From NCBI GenBank assembly GCA_027019175.1, contig JALUXB010000050.1:1-43795 (forward strand): DNA of 43,795 nucleotides, given 5' to 3'. The translations under genes and the position numbers were made by a program. This document shows positions 105 to 41,649 of the stretch, one piece after another; position 1 is the first letter of the stretch; the number at the start of each line of letters is the position of its first letter. Under the pieces are notes generated by a model. That model did not search any database and was not told the DNA's origin. It saw nothing but the letters and a program-made list of their open reading frames with translations. Origin of the DNA: Sulfurovum sp. (GTDB lineage: Bacteria > Campylobacterota > Campylobacteria > Campylobacterales > Sulfurovaceae).

Positions 105-170
105 AATGCTAAAAGTCGCTGCTATGCAGCGCATACCTCAACTCCCCACTTCAAAAATCGGAGATTTTTG
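105..170 (+). repeat. Hairpin plus short heptamer-like tract before holA
   Basis: A perfect hairpin CGCTGC-TAT-GCAGCG (117-131) is followed by CATACC (132-137) and about two 7-bp units, ACTCCCC (141-147) and ACTTCAA (148-154). A second perfect hairpin follows, CAAAAATC-GGA-GATTTTTG (152-170). The hairpin/ATACC/heptamer order matches the modules at 5851, 14769 and 22844. The only Shine-Dalgarno candidate for holA, GGAG at 160-163, sits in the loop and stem edge of the second hairpin. Confidence 0.55.
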
Positions 171-172
171 AT

Positions 173-5776: not shown

Positions 5777-5850
5777 TGTCTACTCCTTTGGAGAAGAAGT
5801 GAGGACTACACTGTCTCTCATCTCTTTTACTCCATGTATATTAAATATAA

Positions 5851-5913
5851 AAGCTTTTCTGCAGAAAAGCATACCAAAATTCCTAATTCCCAATTCCTAA
5901 TTTCTCACTCCCC
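5851..5913. repeat. Hairpin-ATACC-heptamer module 1 (coaX end)
   Basis: A perfect palindrome GCTTTTCTGCAGAAAAGC (5853-5870) is followed by ATACC (5871-5875) and a 7-bp-period array: ATTCCTA (5879-5885), ATTCCCA (5886-5892), ATTCCTA (5893-5899), ATTTCTC (5900-5906), ACTCCCC (5907-5913). On the minus strand the array encodes the last residues of CoaX and contains its stop codon. The hairpin followed by TTTTATATTT then looks like a terminator. Confidence 0.75.
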
Positions 5914-6530
5914 TGCAGTGCATGCACCATTCCCTTGAAGACCAGTGTTTCATCATACACGGCATTGGCAAAGAAACCGGTAAGGGTTCTGCCGTCACCG
6001 CCTGTAACATAGAGCGGTTTTCTCTGAGAGAATGTTTCAATGAGGGTTTTGATAGGCGCGATTATACCATAGCTTATCTGCCCTTTGGTTGTGCGGGGAA
6101 GCTGTGTAAGTGAAATATCGCTATCAAGCGCTGTTTCAAGTACCGGAGAGATGCTGGTATAACTCTTCTGCAATGCCAAAAGCCCGGGGTAGATAAACCC
6201 GCCTTTGTAAATGCCCCGCTCCATCACATCCACCGTAATGGCAGACCCCGCATCGATAAAAACACCATTGTCATGGCTCAGACACAGCGCCCTTCGGTCT
6301 ACACCCATTGTGTCATATTCACCGGGAATGTGTATCTTGTTGGAGATGTTCTCCCACACAGTTTCCGTCTTTAAGCGTGATTCCAGATGGTGATTGACTG
6401 AAATATAGTACACTTTTTTCATACCATACTGCTCTATTGCTTCATCAGGCAACAGATGTACGACCTCTTTACCGTCGTAAAGATGGATACGGCTATTTCC
6501 CACATCGGCAAGAAGTGAACCATCCTCCAT
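5883..6530 (-). CDS. coaX: Type III pantothenate kinase
   Basis: CoaX phosphorylates pantothenate, the first step of coenzyme A synthesis; the type III enzyme is not feedback-inhibited by CoA. Motifs are the N-terminal phosphate loop LLADVGNSRIHLYDG, GVDRRALCLSHD (GxDR), DAGSAITVDVM (DAGTAxT-like) and GGFIYPGLLALQ, with a C-terminal ASKHA segment YVTGGDGRTLTGFF. ATG 6530 gives 215 residues and places DVGNSR near the N-terminus as in the family. In-frame ATGs at 6551 and further upstream would add only repeat-coded residues. Both ends are made of heptamer repeats: the start region by CATCNNC units, and the C-terminal KLGIGN by ATTCC(T/C)A units. It lies downstream of a small unknown gene and upstream of hisG. 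Confidence 0.9.
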   Translation of the reverse strand: MEDGSLLADVGNSRIHLYDGKEVVHLLPDEAIEQYGMKKVYYISVNHHLESRLKTETVWENISNKIHIPGEYDTMGVDRRALCLSHDNGVFIDAGSAITVDVMERGIYKGGFIYPGLLALQKSYTSISPVLETALDSDISLTQLPRTTKGQISYGIIAPIKTLIETFSQRKPLYVTGGDGRTLTGFFANAVYDETLVFKGMVHALQGSEKLGIGN

Positions 6531-6571
6531 CTTCCATCCCCCATCTTCCATCGTTTCATGAAACATGAAAC
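6521..6571. repeat. CATCNNC heptamer array with hairpin (coaX start)
   Basis: Five contiguous 7-bp units: CATCCTC (6521-6527), CATCTTC (6528-6534), CATCCCC (6535-6541), CATCTTC (6542-6548), CATCGTT (6549-6555). They run into the perfect hairpin GTTTCATG-AAA-CATGAAAC (6553-6571). On the minus strand the units are GATGGAA-like and carry several possible coaX start codons and GGGGG as Shine-Dalgarno. The hairpin contains the stop of the upstream gene. Confidence 0.75.
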
Positions 6572-6885
6572 ACCCTCCATCCATACTCCTCAAACAGTGC
6601 CTTGGCCTTGGAGCAGAGCGGTGCCTTGATGATGATATACTTCTTCCTGATCGCACTGCCGACATACTTCTCCAGTTTGTCATGCAGCGCCATCAGCTCC
6701 TGTGCCTCTTTGCGCAGTACCCTGCTCTTCTTCTCAAGCACCATCACATCGGCATAAAAGCCTTTGAGATCCACACCGACAAATATCTGTACTCTCTTAC
6801 GGCTGCCAAGCTCTTTGACAGAAACTTCTTTGAGGGATTTAAACACAAGGTTGTGCTGCTGTAAAAATTCGACGAGTTCTTTCAT
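6556..6885 (-). CDS. Conserved small protein of unknown function
   Basis: The 109-residue basic protein is mostly alpha/beta: EFLQQHNLVFKSLKEVSV, then a beta hairpin (RVQIFVGVDLKGFYADVMVL), a long Lys/Arg-rich helix (EKKSRVLRKEAQELMALHDK) and a final IIIKAPLCSKAKALFEEYGW. The order of Asp, Glu and Lys after the hairpin and the closing hydrophobic strand are loosely compatible with a PD-(D/E)xK-like fold, but this is only a guess and no family was identified. It follows xerD by 25 bases on the same strand, and its stop lies inside the hairpin of the CATCNNC module. Confidence 0.65.
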   Translation of the reverse strand: MKELVEFLQQHNLVFKSLKEVSVKELGSRKRVQIFVGVDLKGFYADVMVLEKKSRVLRKEAQELMALHDKLEKYVGSAIRKKYIIIKAPLCSKAKALFEEYGWRVFHVS

Positions 6886-14740: not shown

Positions 14741-14768
14741 ACTTTTCCTTTTTACAAATAATCAATAG

Positions 14769-14823
14769 AAGCGTTGCCAAGCAACGCAAACCACAATTCC
14801 TAATTCCTAATTCCTAATTCTTC
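14769..14823. repeat. Hairpin-AAACC-heptamer module 2 (dapC end)
   Basis: A perfect hairpin GCGTTGC-CAA-GCAACGC (14771-14787) is followed by AAACC (14788-14792) and units ATTCCTA (14796-14802), ATTCCTA (14803-14809), ATTCCTA (14810-14816), ATTCTTC (14817-14823). The array codes for the end of the aminotransferase (ELGIRN) and contains its TAG stop. On the minus strand the hairpin is followed by TTCTATT and could act as a terminator. Confidence 0.78.
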
Positions 14824-15939
14824 CATCAAGTTGGCAATACGTTGCAGCGCCTCTCTCGTCTTCTCCGCTTCATACACCAGTGCCAGCCGAACATATCCTT
14901 TGCCTTCTCCCTTGCGTCCGAGGAAAGAGCCGGGAATCACTTTGAGGTTGTAGCGTTCGTAGAGTTTAACGGTAAAGTCGATCTCGTCACCGACTTTTAT
15001 CCAGATGTAAAAGGTCGCTTCGGGAGGCTCCACATCCAATACCTCTTTGGCAATCTCAAAATTCTTTTTGTATTTCTCTCTAAAGCCGTCGACATGACTC
15101 TGATTCGCCCACGCTGCGGCAGCCGCATGCTGAAGCGGCAGAGGAGAAGCACAGCCCACATAGGTTCGGTAGGTCATATATTCACGCAGAATATCGGCAT
15201 CTCCGGCAATGAATCCCGAACGCAGCCCCGGCGCAGAAGAACGTTTGGAGATGGAGTTGATGACAAGCACGTTTTTAAAGGCCGGATTCCCCGCTTCAAC
15301 AGAAGCATTGAGCAGTGAGGGCACCGGCTCGTTCAGGTAGAGGTCGGCATAGCACTCGTCATTCATCAGCACAAAATCATATTTGAGCGCCAGTTTCACC
15401 CAGTGCTTCATCGCCTCAAGGCTCATCGTTGACGCGGTCGGGTTGTTGGGCGAATTGAGAATGACAAGGTTGGCCTCTGCCAGTACCGCCTCATCGGCTA
15501 CCGGCTGAAAGTTGTTGCTTTCATTGAGATTGAGATAGACCACCTCCGCACGGCTCGCCTTCGCCGCCCCCTCGTATATCTGGTAAAAAGGGTTTGGAAA
15601 GACCATCAGCGGTGCTTCGACATCGTGAAGCAGAAACTGTGGAAAATTGAAAAGCACTTCACGCGTTCCGAAAGTGGGAATGAGCTGGTGGAGTGAGAGC
15701 GTCAAACCAAAGCGGTTTTCAAGATAGGTCAGCATACCCTCACGTAAAACCGTTTCACCGGCGGTTTTCGGATATTTGTTGAAAAGAGGCAGGTTTGCCT
15801 CAAGTACATCGAGGATAAACTGCGGCGTCGCAAACTGCGGCTCGCCGATCGTCAAAGAGAGCGGCGCATAGTCGCTGTTTGGCAGCAGCCCGTCAAGTAA
15901 ATTGTTAAGTTTCTCGAACGGATAGGTTTCGAAATTCAT
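14800..15939 (-). CDS. dapC: Class I/II PLP aminotransferase, DapC-like
   Basis: This 379-residue fold-type I aminotransferase has ILNSPNNPTASTMSLEAMKH (substrate/PLP Asn-Pro motif), NDECYADLYL (PLP-binding Asp), the Schiff-base lysine in VINSISKRSSAPGLRSGF, and the C-terminal Arg region GYVRLALVYEAEKTREAL. It is most like the epsilonproteobacterial succinyldiaminopimelate aminotransferase group that feeds meso-diaminopimelate and lysine synthesis. The neighbouring murC and H. pylori synteny (HP0623-HP0624) fit cell wall precursor supply. Substrate specificity within class I is hard to settle by eye. The last six residues come from a heptamer array. Confidence 0.75.
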   Translation of the reverse strand: MNFETYPFEKLNNLLDGLLPNSDYAPLSLTIGEPQFATPQFILDVLEANLPLFNKYPKTAGETVLREGMLTYLENRFGLTLSLHQLIPTFGTREVLFNFPQFLLHDVEAPLMVFPNPFYQIYEGAAKASRAEVVYLNLNESNNFQPVADEAVLAEANLVILNSPNNPTASTMSLEAMKHWVKLALKYDFVLMNDECYADLYLNEPVPSLLNASVEAGNPAFKNVLVINSISKRSSAPGLRSGFIAGDADILREYMTYRTYVGCASPLPLQHAAAAAWANQSHVDGFREKYKKNFEIAKEVLDVEPPEATFYIWIKVGDEIDFTVKLYERYNLKVIPGSFLGRKGEGKGYVRLALVYEAEKTREALQRIANLMEELGIRN

Positions 15940-22784: not shown

Positions 22785-22843
22785 ACCTGCTCCTTCTTGT
22801 TAATGCTTTTTACTCAAAAGAAGTTGTTCTTTTCAATAAAAAG

Positions 22844-22905
22844 CTTTTTCCATAGGAAAAGAATACCAAAACTCTTCACTCTTAATTCTTAACTCTTCAC
22901 TCCTA
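22844..22905. repeat. Hairpin-ATACC-heptamer module 3 (between secF and the small membrane protein)
   Basis: A hairpin CTTTT-CC/GG-AAAAG with a bulge (22844-22861) is followed by ATACC (22863-22867) and units ACTCTTC (22871-22877), ACTCTTA (22878-22884), ATTCTTA (22885-22891), ACTCTTC (22892-22898), ACTCCTA (22899-22905). Just upstream lies another hairpin, AAAAGAA-GTTG-TTCTTTT (22815-22832). On the minus strand the first hairpin ends in CTTTTTATTG and may terminate secF transcripts. Confidence 0.75.
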
Positions 22906-22924
22906 AAAGCGGGTTACCGCTTTT
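22905..22924 (-). terminator. Terminator after the duplicated secF tail
   Basis: A symmetrical stem AAAAGCGG-GTTA-CCGCTTTT. On the minus strand it follows directly on the TAA of the duplicated secF tail. It may work in both directions. Confidence 0.6.
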
Positions 22925-23056
22925 AGACCGTCCCCTGTTCGTACATGGCACGCATCTGTTCTATTTTCCTTCTCCTTTGCAAGAGGCAAAGCCCCTTGCA
23001 AATTCCTCTCACTAAAGCTTCGCCTTCGGCTCAGAAGAGAAGATGCGTAAATGCTA
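22923..23056 (-). repeat. Duplicated secF 3' tail flanking an inserted hairpin
   Basis: On the minus strand, 22923-22955 encodes MRAMYEQGTV plus TAA, the same last ten residues as the live secF end (23057-23089). The copies share 22 identical bases (22936-22957 and 23070-23091). Between them is a long hairpin, TTTGCAAG (22976-22983) with CTTGCAAA (22995-23002) and an inner GGC/GCC, followed by ATTCCTCTCACTA. This looks like an insertion that duplicated or regenerated the gene end. Confidence 0.75.
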
Positions 23057-24028
23057 TTATACTGTACCTTGTTCGTACATGGCACGCATCTTCTCTTTCT
23101 CTTTTTCGCGTTTGAGCTTTTCAGCCTCTTTTTCGCGGAAGTCTTTGACAGAGAAGCCCAGCCACATCAGAATAGGTGAGGCAACAAAGATAGACGAATA
23201 GGTACCGACAATAATACCTACAAGCAGTGTAAAGCTGAACCCGCGAATGATCTCTCCGCCAAAAAGGAAGAGGGTCAAGACCACAAAGAAAGTGGTCAGC
23301 GAGGTCAGTGTCGTACGTGAAAGGGTCTGGGTCACAGACTCATCAATAATATCGCTGAGTACTACATTTTTGCTGCTTTTGATCCCCTCACGGATACGGT
23401 CGAAGACGATGATTGTATCGTTCAGTGAATACCCGAGAATGGTCAGCAGGGCTGCGAGTGTATCGAGGTTGACCTCAACATTGAAAAGTACCACCGCACC
23501 CATGGCAATGGTCACATCGTGAATCAGCGCCATAACCGAAGCGACGGCAAAACGCCACTCGAACCGGAAAGAGACATAAATAAGAATACCGAGAATTGCC
23601 AGCACCAGTGCCATCAGACCCTTCTCTCTCAGCTCCGAACCGACTTTTGCACCGACCATGTCTACCCTTCGCACTTCGAAGTTGCCCGTACCCTTGAGCA
23701 GTTCACGCATCGTGTCACCCATATCTTTACCCAGCGATTTGGAGCTTGTCTTGGTACGAATGATCACTTCATTGTCATTACCGAAATATGTTACGGTTGC
23801 ATCTTCGTAATTTTTGTCTGCGGTGATCGCTTTTCTGATCTTGTCAATAGGTGCTTTTTTCTCATAGTGTACCTGTACCAGTGTACCGCCGGCAAAGTCA
23901 AGACCATAGTTGAAGCCCTTTGTAAAGATCAGTGCCAGAGAGATCAATACCAGCGTTACAGAAAGAATGCCGAAACGCTTGGCTTTGCTCATCAACGGAA
24001 TCGGTTTGTCATACTTGAAAATTTCCAT
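23057..24028 (-). CDS. secF: Protein translocase subunit SecF
   Basis: With SecD and YajC it forms the accessory complex that uses proton motive force to complete protein export through SecYEG. The 323-residue protein has a first membrane segment (FGILSVTLVLISLALIFTKG), the signature LDFAGGTLVQVHYEKK, a periplasmic P1-like domain, and five further membrane segments. The SecF blocks LTILGYSLNDTIIVFDRIRE and SRTTLTSLTTFFVVLTLFLF are clear. The C-terminus is a charged helix EKEAEKLKREKEKEKMRAMY. It starts one base into the secD stop (TAATG). Its last ten codons are duplicated downstream. Confidence 0.96.
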   Translation of the reverse strand: MEIFKYDKPIPLMSKAKRFGILSVTLVLISLALIFTKGFNYGLDFAGGTLVQVHYEKKAPIDKIRKAITADKNYEDATVTYFGNDNEVIIRTKTSSKSLGKDMGDTMRELLKGTGNFEVRRVDMVGAKVGSELREKGLMALVLAILGILIYVSFRFEWRFAVASVMALIHDVTIAMGAVVLFNVEVNLDTLAALLTILGYSLNDTIIVFDRIREGIKSSKNVVLSDIIDESVTQTLSRTTLTSLTTFFVVLTLFLFGGEIIRGFSFTLLVGIIVGTYSSIFVASPILMWLGFSVKDFREKEAEKLKREKEKEKMRAMYEQGTV

Positions 24029-25897: not shown

Positions 25898-27244
25898 ATG
25901 AATAAAATGAGACAATATTTTAGCAGTAATATATTAACAGGAGCCTTTTTGAAATACCTACCTGCTTTATGCGGCAACCCTGCCAAAAAAGCCGACTTTT
26001 TCTGTGGCATCGCTATTGCACTCACCGGGTCGGCATTTCTCTACCTTTCCCATATCGGCATTGTCCTGCCGTGGCTCAACACCCTGCTTGGCCTGCTCTT
26101 TTTTTACCTTTTGCTGCCGGCCAATGCACGTACATGGTTCTTTGCCGGCGCTTTTCTTTCCCTGTTCTGGTTTTGGTGGATCGCACTCAGTTTCCTTCAC
26201 TACCGCATGGCATGGGCTATCCCCCTCGTACTTCTCTTCATCGCCCTTGTCTACGGCACCCTCTTCTGGCTCATCGCCAAAACCGCTTTCCTCATAGAAG
26301 GCAACATCATCCATCATTCATCATCCATCATCCATCTCTCTTTAAAAGCTCTCGGCCTTTTAGGCTTAAGCTACATTCACCCCTTCACCTTCGACTGGTT
26401 CAAGCCTGAACTGATGTTTACACAGAGCGATCTGGGGATCCAAAAATGGCAGTTTGCCCTCATACTCATGGCACTTGTTCTGACACATTGGCGTAAAAAT
26501 CCGCTTTTCCTTTTGCTGATACTGCTTGCCTGGCAGCCTCAGCCTCATAGTGTTGACAGGCACCATACAGATATTAGCCTCATAACGACCCATACCCCCG
26601 TGGAAGCCAAGTGGGACAAAACAAAACATCCCACACAGTTTCAGAAGCTCTTGTCCCGTATTGACAGTGCCATCGATGCCAACAAAACGCTTGTTGTACT
26701 TCCCGAGTCGGTTTTCCCTGTTTATCTCAACCGAAACCAGAAACTCTTTGATGCACTGCATGAGCGTGCCAAACACATCAATATTGTGACCGGTGCACTC
26801 TACTGGGACGGCAAAACTCCCCGAAATGCCACTTACATTTTTACCAAAGACGGCAAAGTACGTGTAGCAAACAAGGTTATTCTTGTCCCCTTTGGAGAAG
26901 CCAACCCCCTGCCCGACTTTCTCAGCGACTGGGTCAACAGGGTTTTTTATGACAATGCGGTGGACTACAAGGCAGATGCTGTTATCTCCGACTACACCGT
27001 CGAGGGTAAAACCTACCGTAACGCGATCTGCTTTGAAGCAACCAGCGAACCGCTTTACCAAGGAGATCCCAAACAGATGATCGTCCTGAGCAACAATGGC
27101 TGGTTCACCCCCTCCATCGAACCGACCCTCCAGCGGATTTTGCTACAATACTATTCCAGAAAGTACGGTACAACCATCTACCATGCCGTCAACATGGCAC
27201 CCTCATATATCATCCGAAAGGGAAAGGTTTTCTACCACCCATGA
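25898..27244 (+). CDS. lnt: Apolipoprotein N-acyltransferase
   Basis: Lnt transfers the third acyl chain to the N-terminal Cys of lipoproteins in the inner membrane. The N-terminal half has six or so membrane segments (GIAIALTGSAFLYLSHIGIV, LLGLLFFYLLLPANA, FFAGAFLSLFWFWWIALSFL, AIPLVLLFIALVYGTLFWLI). The C-terminal half is a nitrilase-like domain with the catalytic triad Glu in VVLPESVFP, Lys in VANKVILVPFGE, and Cys in NAICFEATSEPLY. Residues about 137-150 (NIIHHSSSIIHLSL) are coded by a 7-bp repeat array. ATG 25898 is used; a TTG at 25949 with AGGAG five bases upstream is a strong alternative. Its TGA overlaps the yidD ATG (ATGA). It matches the place of Cj1095 next to yajC in Campylobacter (recalled). 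Confidence 0.9.
   Translation: MNKMRQYFSSNILTGAFLKYLPALCGNPAKKADFFCGIAIALTGSAFLYLSHIGIVLPWLNTLLGLLFFYLLLPANARTWFFAGAFLSLFWFWWIALSFLHYRMAWAIPLVLLFIALVYGTLFWLIAKTAFLIEGNIIHHSSSIIHLSLKALGLLGLSYIHPFTFDWFKPELMFTQSDLGIQKWQFALILMALVLTHWRKNPLFLLLILLAWQPQPHSVDRHHTDISLITTHTPVEAKWDKTKHPTQFQKLLSRIDSAIDANKTLVVLPESVFPVYLNRNQKLFDALHERAKHINIVTGALYWDGKTPRNATYIFTKDGKVRVANKVILVPFGEANPLPDFLSDWVNRVFYDNAVDYKADAVISDYTVEGKTYRNAICFEATSEPLYQGDPKQMIVLSNNGWFTPSIEPTLQRILLQYYSRKYGTTIYHAVNMAPSYIIRKGKVFYHP
26306..26340. repeat. ATCATCC heptamer array inside lnt
   Basis: Five contiguous 7-bp units: ATCATCC (26306-26312), ATCATTC (26313-26319), ATCATCC (26320-26326), ATCATCC (26327-26333), ATCTCTC (26334-26340). The array adds about 12 His/Ser/Ile-rich residues to a loop between membrane segments of Lnt. 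A small hairpin GGCCT-TTT-AGGCT follows about 15 bases later. Confidence 0.75.
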
Positions 27245-41587: not shown

Positions 41588-41649
41588 ATTATAGCGGCAA
41601 AGGGTTAAGGGTTAAGGGTTAAGGGTTAAGGGTTAAGGGTTAAGGGTAT
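41588..41649. repeat. AGGGTTA heptamer array abutting a promoter
   Basis: Six perfect AGGGTTA units (41601-41642) and a degenerate AGGGTAT (41643-41649). On the minus strand the array reads (TTAACCC)n and ends 8 bases before TATAAT (41588-41593), the -10 of the membrane protein pair. The -35 position therefore falls inside the array (TTAACC, 16-base spacing). Confidence 0.85.

Follow-up and report, generated by a model that had tools for sequence, protein, structure and literature searches.

The window analysed here, the whole 43,795 nt stretch that makes up contig C50 of a 2.2 Mb Sulfurovum assembly in 87 contigs, carries four dispersed copies of a composite module. All four had been predicted from the nucleotide sequence, and each is present at, or a few bases from, the predicted position. 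Read on the minus strand, the module consists of a heptamer array, a base N, the tag GGT(A/T)T, a 7 bp stem with a loop of 3–4 nt, and a T-rich stretch. This order had been anticipated for three of the four copies; the order itself is right, and it holds for all four. Two copies are further accompanied by a palindrome outside the array (positions 151–171 and 22903–22926), a component that the original prediction had missed. The features of the window are as follows.

116..138, minus strand: hairpin 1, A type; stem TCGCTGC (116–122) and GCAGCGC (126–132), loop 123–125, tag ATACC (that is, GGTAT) 133–137, N 138
139..150, minus strand: array 1, a shortened array of 12 bp, 21 less than the full 33
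151..171, no strand: palindrome TCAAAAATC-GGA-GATTTTTGA, locus-specific, abutting array 1
5853..5876, minus strand: hairpin 2, B type; GCTTTTC-TGCA-GAAAAGC (5853–5870), tag ATACC 5871–5875, N 5876
5877..5909, minus strand: array 2, a 33 bp heptamer array
14771..14793, minus strand: hairpin 3, A type; GCGTTGC-CAA-GCAACGC (14771–14787), tag AAACC 14788–14792, N 14793
14794..14826, minus strand: array 3, a 33 bp heptamer array
22844..22868, minus strand: hairpin 4, B type with one bulged T; CTTTTTCC-ATA-GGAAAAG, tag ATACC 22863–22867, N 22868
22869..22901, minus strand: array 4, a 33 bp heptamer array
22903..22926, no strand: palindrome by array 4, CTAAAAGCGG-GTTA-CCGCTTTTAG, locus-specific, read directly from the sequence

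The palindrome at 151–171, which is missing from relatives without the element, directly precedes a start codon at 173 and holds a Shine-Dalgarno-like GGAG in its loop and arm. Array 2 provides the stop codon of a pantothenate-kinase-like ORF (5883–6683, minus strand), array 3 codes for both the C-terminus and the stop of an aminotransferase ORF (14800–15939, minus strand), and the palindrome at 22903–22926, which abuts array 4, is on the side towards the 3' end of the SecF gene. That 3' end (TTCGTACATGGCACGCATCT) occurs as a direct repeat at 22934–22970 and 23066–23100; the two repeat copies lie about 130 bp from each other and enclose several short palindromes, and the arrangement looks like an insertion-caused duplication.

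A covariance model was built from eight hairpins, each taken with its tag and T tail but without the array. This model recovers the window copies at 110–138, 5847–5876, 14765–14793 and 22837–22868 (the last a weak match, E 2.0); a scan of the window with Rfam 15 gave no match to any known RNA family. Further copies were found beyond the window: counting matches at E≤1, and analysing the stretches around them in its own genome, the Sulfurovum genome of the window (G000) holds 32 hairpins. Three congeners (G001, G002 and G009) hold 45, 75 and 87 respectively, and most other Sulfurovum relatives 0–3, a burst in copy number. An order-wide scan, run with the stricter filters of large searches that may miss weak copies, found matches in 13 of 299 genomes, 12 of which belong to the same family. 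A second genus is among them, and there too the array recurs beside the hairpin (g10). On present data, the hairpin element is specific to the Sulfurovaceae.

Among 155 copies the stem has 27 distinct 5' arms, and, as predicted, pairing is kept while the bases differ. At position 3 the pair is A-T in 63 copies, T-A in 54, G-C in 33 and C-G in three; at position 6 it is G-C in 97, T-A in 46, and A-T and C-G in four each. Hairpins lie less than 200 bp apart as inward-facing (head-to-head) pairs 21 times, and as outward-facing pairs never. Each of the 19 direct pairs has one A-like stem (..TTGC; GCATTGC, GCGTTGC and similar) and one B-like stem (..TTTTC/T; GCTTTTC, GCTTTTT and similar), never two of the same type, while the other two inward pairs are the outer hairpins of triple arrays. 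At two loci (L306, 480–640; L217) a copy lies inside the hairpin of another copy, together with a palindrome of its own, an apparent nested insertion. At least four of the six bases following the stem are T in 143 of the 155 copies, and the median hairpin energy is −8.4 kcal/mol. The predicted resemblance to a terminator is borne out to this extent: by its sequence the hairpin is terminator-like, combining the stable hairpin and T-run of an intrinsic terminator.

Among short periods of 2 to 12, only period 7 is strongly over-represented in the window: 125 windows of 28 bp reach at least 18 matches at this period, and at most 21 do so at any other. That hairpin and array are associated beyond chance was examined using hits outside the covariance model seeds, the criterion being that the tag-side 33 bp reach a period-7 identity of 0.6 or more, with stretches 117–150 bp away as controls. 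In other genomes, 85 of 98 copies carry the period on the tag side, compared with 0 of 98 controls (Fisher 1e-41) and with seven of 98 on the side opposite the tag (Fisher 4e-32 versus the tag side). The same measure with periods 5, 6, 8 and 9 picks out 0, 0, 1 and 0 copies. In the own genome, minus seeds, nine of 21 copies have a tag-side array, versus 0 of 21 controls.

The full array measures 33 bp, or four heptamers plus 5. Where a palindrome marks the outer edge, 34 sites have this edge at exactly 33 bp and 50 have it at 32–37 bp; shortened arrays end at 26 bp in three sites and at 12 bp in three, in each case 33 minus whole heptamers. By a measure of extent that tends to end a few bases too early, one of 126 arrays exceeds 36 bp (reaching 42) and none exceeds 43. 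Since array length is bounded in this way, and short arrays are 33 minus 7k, the proposal that the arrays grow by open-ended slippage is rejected.

The heptamer varies from locus to locus (AGTGAAT, AGTGAAG, AATGAGG, ATTGAGG, AGGTAGG, GGGTAGC and others; at least 14 different majority heptamers among 125 arrays), and within one locus it is often identical four times over. In 20 orthologous in-register pairs the arrays are mostly conserved, with a mean identity of 0.86, which rejects array replacement at every locus as a general rule. In a minority of these pairs every copy of the unit has changed while the array length has stayed constant. The palindrome is kept in three such cases: AGTGAAT ×4 versus AGTGAAG ×4 (L126/L146), AGCGGGT versus AGTGAAT (L129/L140), and AGGTAGG versus AATGAGG (L210/L244). 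A further pair (L206/L228) shows the same wholesale change. Array 1 has a full-length allele, (AGTGAAG)4AGTTT, on contig C74 (L055); the two holA-like loci on C50 and C74 are 99% identical and differ in array length, which points to a slight mixture of strains in the assembly.

Period-7 tracts are also found elsewhere. In the window, six to seven perfect (GGGTTAA) units stand in tandem at 41603–41647, G-rich on the plus strand and with no adjoining hairpin, and two tracts lie away from GGTAT hairpins (6515–6557, CCATCTT-like; 26296–26346, CATCATC-like). A separate (TTAGAAA)n class, with neither hairpin nor palindrome, begins a few bases after the stops of unrelated genes (near position 1500 of L012, L022 and L029, and near 877 in L030).

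At 61 of 155 sites (about 40%) an inverted repeat abuts the outer edge of the array, versus 0 of 455 control bins; about 60% of sites are without a clear palindrome. The arms are 7–20 bp long, 55 of the 61 are free of mismatches, and the loop is 3 nt in 37. The palindrome differs in sequence at each locus and takes in host gene sequence: the start and first codons of the activase gene (L032, L125), the ITLFGY codons of murD (L054), stop codons (L123, L135) or a Shine-Dalgarno-like GGAG (L131, L140). Codon 3 of the activase gene is GCG in G000 and TCG in G009, and the upstream arm mirrors the difference. One array with palindrome (L164, at the murD start in G010) surrounds a different core, in a genome almost without GGTAT hairpins; the flanks are accordingly more general than this hairpin.

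Comparison with relatives reveals empty sites. The holA-like gene (the label is our own; the protein has no Pfam match) carries the element in G000 and G009; in G001, G003, G004, G005 and G008 it overlaps the upstream gene (TAATG), with no array and no palindrome. The activase start is native, without the element, in G001, G003, G006, G010 and G012, as is murD in G003, G005, G006, G011 and G012. Element-side arms are absent or imperfect in the empty sites. At rpe, where the own genome lacks a module of the family, it has an imperfect inverted repeat, TCAAAGAGGCGATTGCTTCATTGA, paired at 8 of 10 positions; in G009 and G002, where the element is present, the element-side arm is made perfect by two changes, both synonymous. 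In murD of G002 and G009, in-frame insertions lie beside a native inverted repeat (AAACCG-TTCA-CGGTTT), which is lengthened by TATCC on the element side. The arm next to the element is thus the derived one. The conversion of imperfect palindromes into perfect ones by template switching is an established type of mutation (PMC3820800). Some sites have unrelated palindromes at the same place, for example the holA-like site of G000 and G009, which makes repeated insertion at a single junction likely.

The original prediction described a gene-end cassette. This stands for the 59 of 125 sites at which a gene runs into the array, but not for the 32 of 125 at which a gene starts from it; these 32 genes lie on the outward strand, with starts 29–111 bp away from the tag. 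All three inward reading frames are closed by 87 of 125 arrays, and 35 of the 59 entering genes end inside the array. Shuffles that keep composition and period give 66.9 fully closed arrays (sd 4.6) against 80 observed, so that the stop bias is real but modest. The enrichment is largely explained by the near absence of C from the arrays, and strong selection for stop codons in the heptamers is rejected, the excess over the composition-preserving null being only modest. Nearly every heptamer holds a TGA, TAG or TAA on the inward strand that could stop translation, and, 7 not being a multiple of 3, the array would act as a three-frame stop. Translation would be halted in the array, after which the hairpin and T-run could terminate transcription; with both in place, insertion at gene ends would be tolerated. 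Open frames abound on the outward strand, and genes may restart from the array or read through it.

We consider that the module is probably a non-autonomous mobile element of REP/REPIN type, with stop-array arms and a terminator-like hairpin, which enters native hairpins with fold-back copying. A full copy runs from host DNA through a host-derived palindrome, a 33 bp array, the A hairpin, a spacer, the inverted B hairpin, an inverted 33 bp array and a second host-derived palindrome back to host DNA. Half copies, made up of a single hairpin and a single array, also exist. The element may move as single-stranded DNA and enter at native stem-loops, where the broken host strand would fold back and copy its own end, giving a perfect palindrome that is then joined to the array. 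More tentatively, self-copying of the host strand at the break (a palindrome on each side), copying of the heptamer about 4.7 times to a set length, and joining to the hairpin tag could together constitute a transposition or repair route that has not previously been described.

How such an element is mobilised bears on one of the alternatives, namely that the hairpins are a REP/TIR family moved by the Y1 (TIRYT-like) transposase of the genome, a single type of enzyme making both kinds of array. In the own genome there is a single Y1 transposase gene (L031), with ends GGGGTCAGGTGATAAT of the kind described for TIRYTs, whose GGGGWSAS end motif is on record (PMC3733652), and G000, G002 and G009 have a 270-codon frame in common. 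Directly outside the GGGGTCAGGTGATAAT ends of TIRYT-like elements (L314, L312, L315, L104 and L031) lie locus-specific tandems of 7–9 bp, among them (AGCTTAG)n, (GAAGTCTA)3 and (GATTTAGG)n; their excess, at 11 of 34 versus 4 of 34, is not significant (p 0.08). Against a shared enzyme, tag and hairpin sequences differ (GGTATGC versus GTCAGGTGATAAT), G001 has 45 copies but no such 270-codon frame, and the transposase gene is found in copy-poor genomes too. On balance we regard this explanation as conceivable but doubtful. No GGTAT hairpin lies within 1.5 kb of a Y1 transposase at any of 30 loci from the own and 20 related genomes, and a link by proximity is rejected. A long autonomous copy bounded by widely spaced inward hairpins is rejected as well: such hairpins, 1.6 kb apart in G164, enclose only ordinary genes and a nested insertion. 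GTAG-tagged REPs (GTAGGGTGCGTAATYACGCACC) occur in the own genome as well (L019, L020, L056, L057 and L061), and some of them abut heptamer arrays or adjoin a GGTAT hairpin.

Two further explanations were weighed. The module could be a vertically inherited, non-mobile cis-regulatory or insulating unit kept by selection, in which stop array and terminator act in RNA, the palindrome is an RNA hairpin (sequestering the Shine-Dalgarno sequence or protecting the 3' end), and covariation reflects RNA pairing. The GGAG paired with CTCC in many 5' palindromes, the co-varying arms at orthologous loci and the fact that five of the seven palindrome mismatches are G·T, fitting selection at the RNA level, all speak for it. 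It is nonetheless unlikely, given the very uneven copy numbers among congeners, the inward A/B pairs, the insertion inside murD codons, the copy nested in another copy's hairpin, the empty sites, and the occurrence of one and the same module at gene starts and gene ends. Alternatively, the arrays could be older intergenic simple repeats of LSSR or STRR kind beside which REP hairpins insert, the palindromes being ordinary terminators. Hairpin-free period-7 arrays, such as (TTAGAAA)n after stops and (GGGTTAA)n at 41603–41647 of the window, fit this explanation, but the constant 33 bp spacing and phase from palindrome to tag, the lack of growth beyond about 43 bp, and the lack of the array in the empty sites of the genes checked make it distinctly improbable.

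Seen as a REP/REPIN-type mobile element, the module can be compared with known systems. Its nearest parallels had been sought in STRR and TAACTGA repeats; closer are REP/REPIN sequences and the TIR-type elements of Y1 tyrosine transposases. With REP, REPIN and BIME elements it has in common a short hairpin with a constant unpaired tag at the base of the stem, compensatory changes within the stem, many dispersed copies, inward-facing pairs 60–95 bp apart and a patchy distribution among close relatives. It differs in its tag (GGT(A/T)T, not GTAG or CGTC), in pairing two hairpins of different type, in its flanks (a 33 bp heptamer array and a locus-specific host palindrome) and in that no linked RAYT gene was found at the 30 Y1 loci examined. 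REP/REPIN is thus the closest system, yet the element falls outside it by its tag and its want of a linked transposase. CGTC REPs likewise have no linked RAYT transposase, and REPs that supply stop codons or lie inside target palindromes are on record (PMC3733652). The target palindromes of REPs follow a family consensus (PMC3733652), whereas those of the Sulfurovum element are host-specific. TIRYT elements (TIRtrons; L031 in the same genome) resemble it in that their ends adjoin 7–9 bp tandems with stop codons, but they have a different end sequence and shorter arrays of no fixed length, and encode a transposase.

Cyanobacterial STRRs are heptanucleotide tandem units in intergenic DNA. Long simple sequence repeats (LSSRs), as cited in PMC4679880, are likewise heptanucleotide tandems in intergenic DNA. 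Neither is known to be tied to a hairpin element or to have a fixed length; the Sulfurovum arrays have both. The TAACTGA repeats of Beggiatoaceae (PMC4679880) are similar in period, in closing three frames on one strand and leaving the other open, and in lying mostly at gene starts and ends. However, they consist of one fixed heptamer in 2–6 or more copies, whereas the Sulfurovum element has no genome-wide unit. No hairpin partner or flanking palindrome is described for them there: a word search of that paper returned no 'palindrom' and two mentions of hairpins. The in-frame insertions into murD in G002 and G009 recall the palindromic elements of Rickettsia. These likewise insert in-frame into coding sequence, are unrelated in sequence to the present element and, to our knowledge, have no heptamer arrays. 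For the combination of hairpin, fixed-length heptamer array and host palindrome in one element, no description was found in the literature searched.

How REP-like elements move is still unclear, and the insertion scars described here matter for this reason. They are locus-specific and readable: the host target is present as a perfect inverted copy, and the array is uniform and of fixed length, so that the insertion mechanism can be tested by sequence comparison alone. Our results suggest a selfish element that brings along a three-frame stop and a terminator of its own. This would explain why gene boundaries tolerate hundreds of insertions, even in operons of essential genes such as murD. The element may likewise lie behind the unexplained heptamer arrays seen in other sulfur bacteria.
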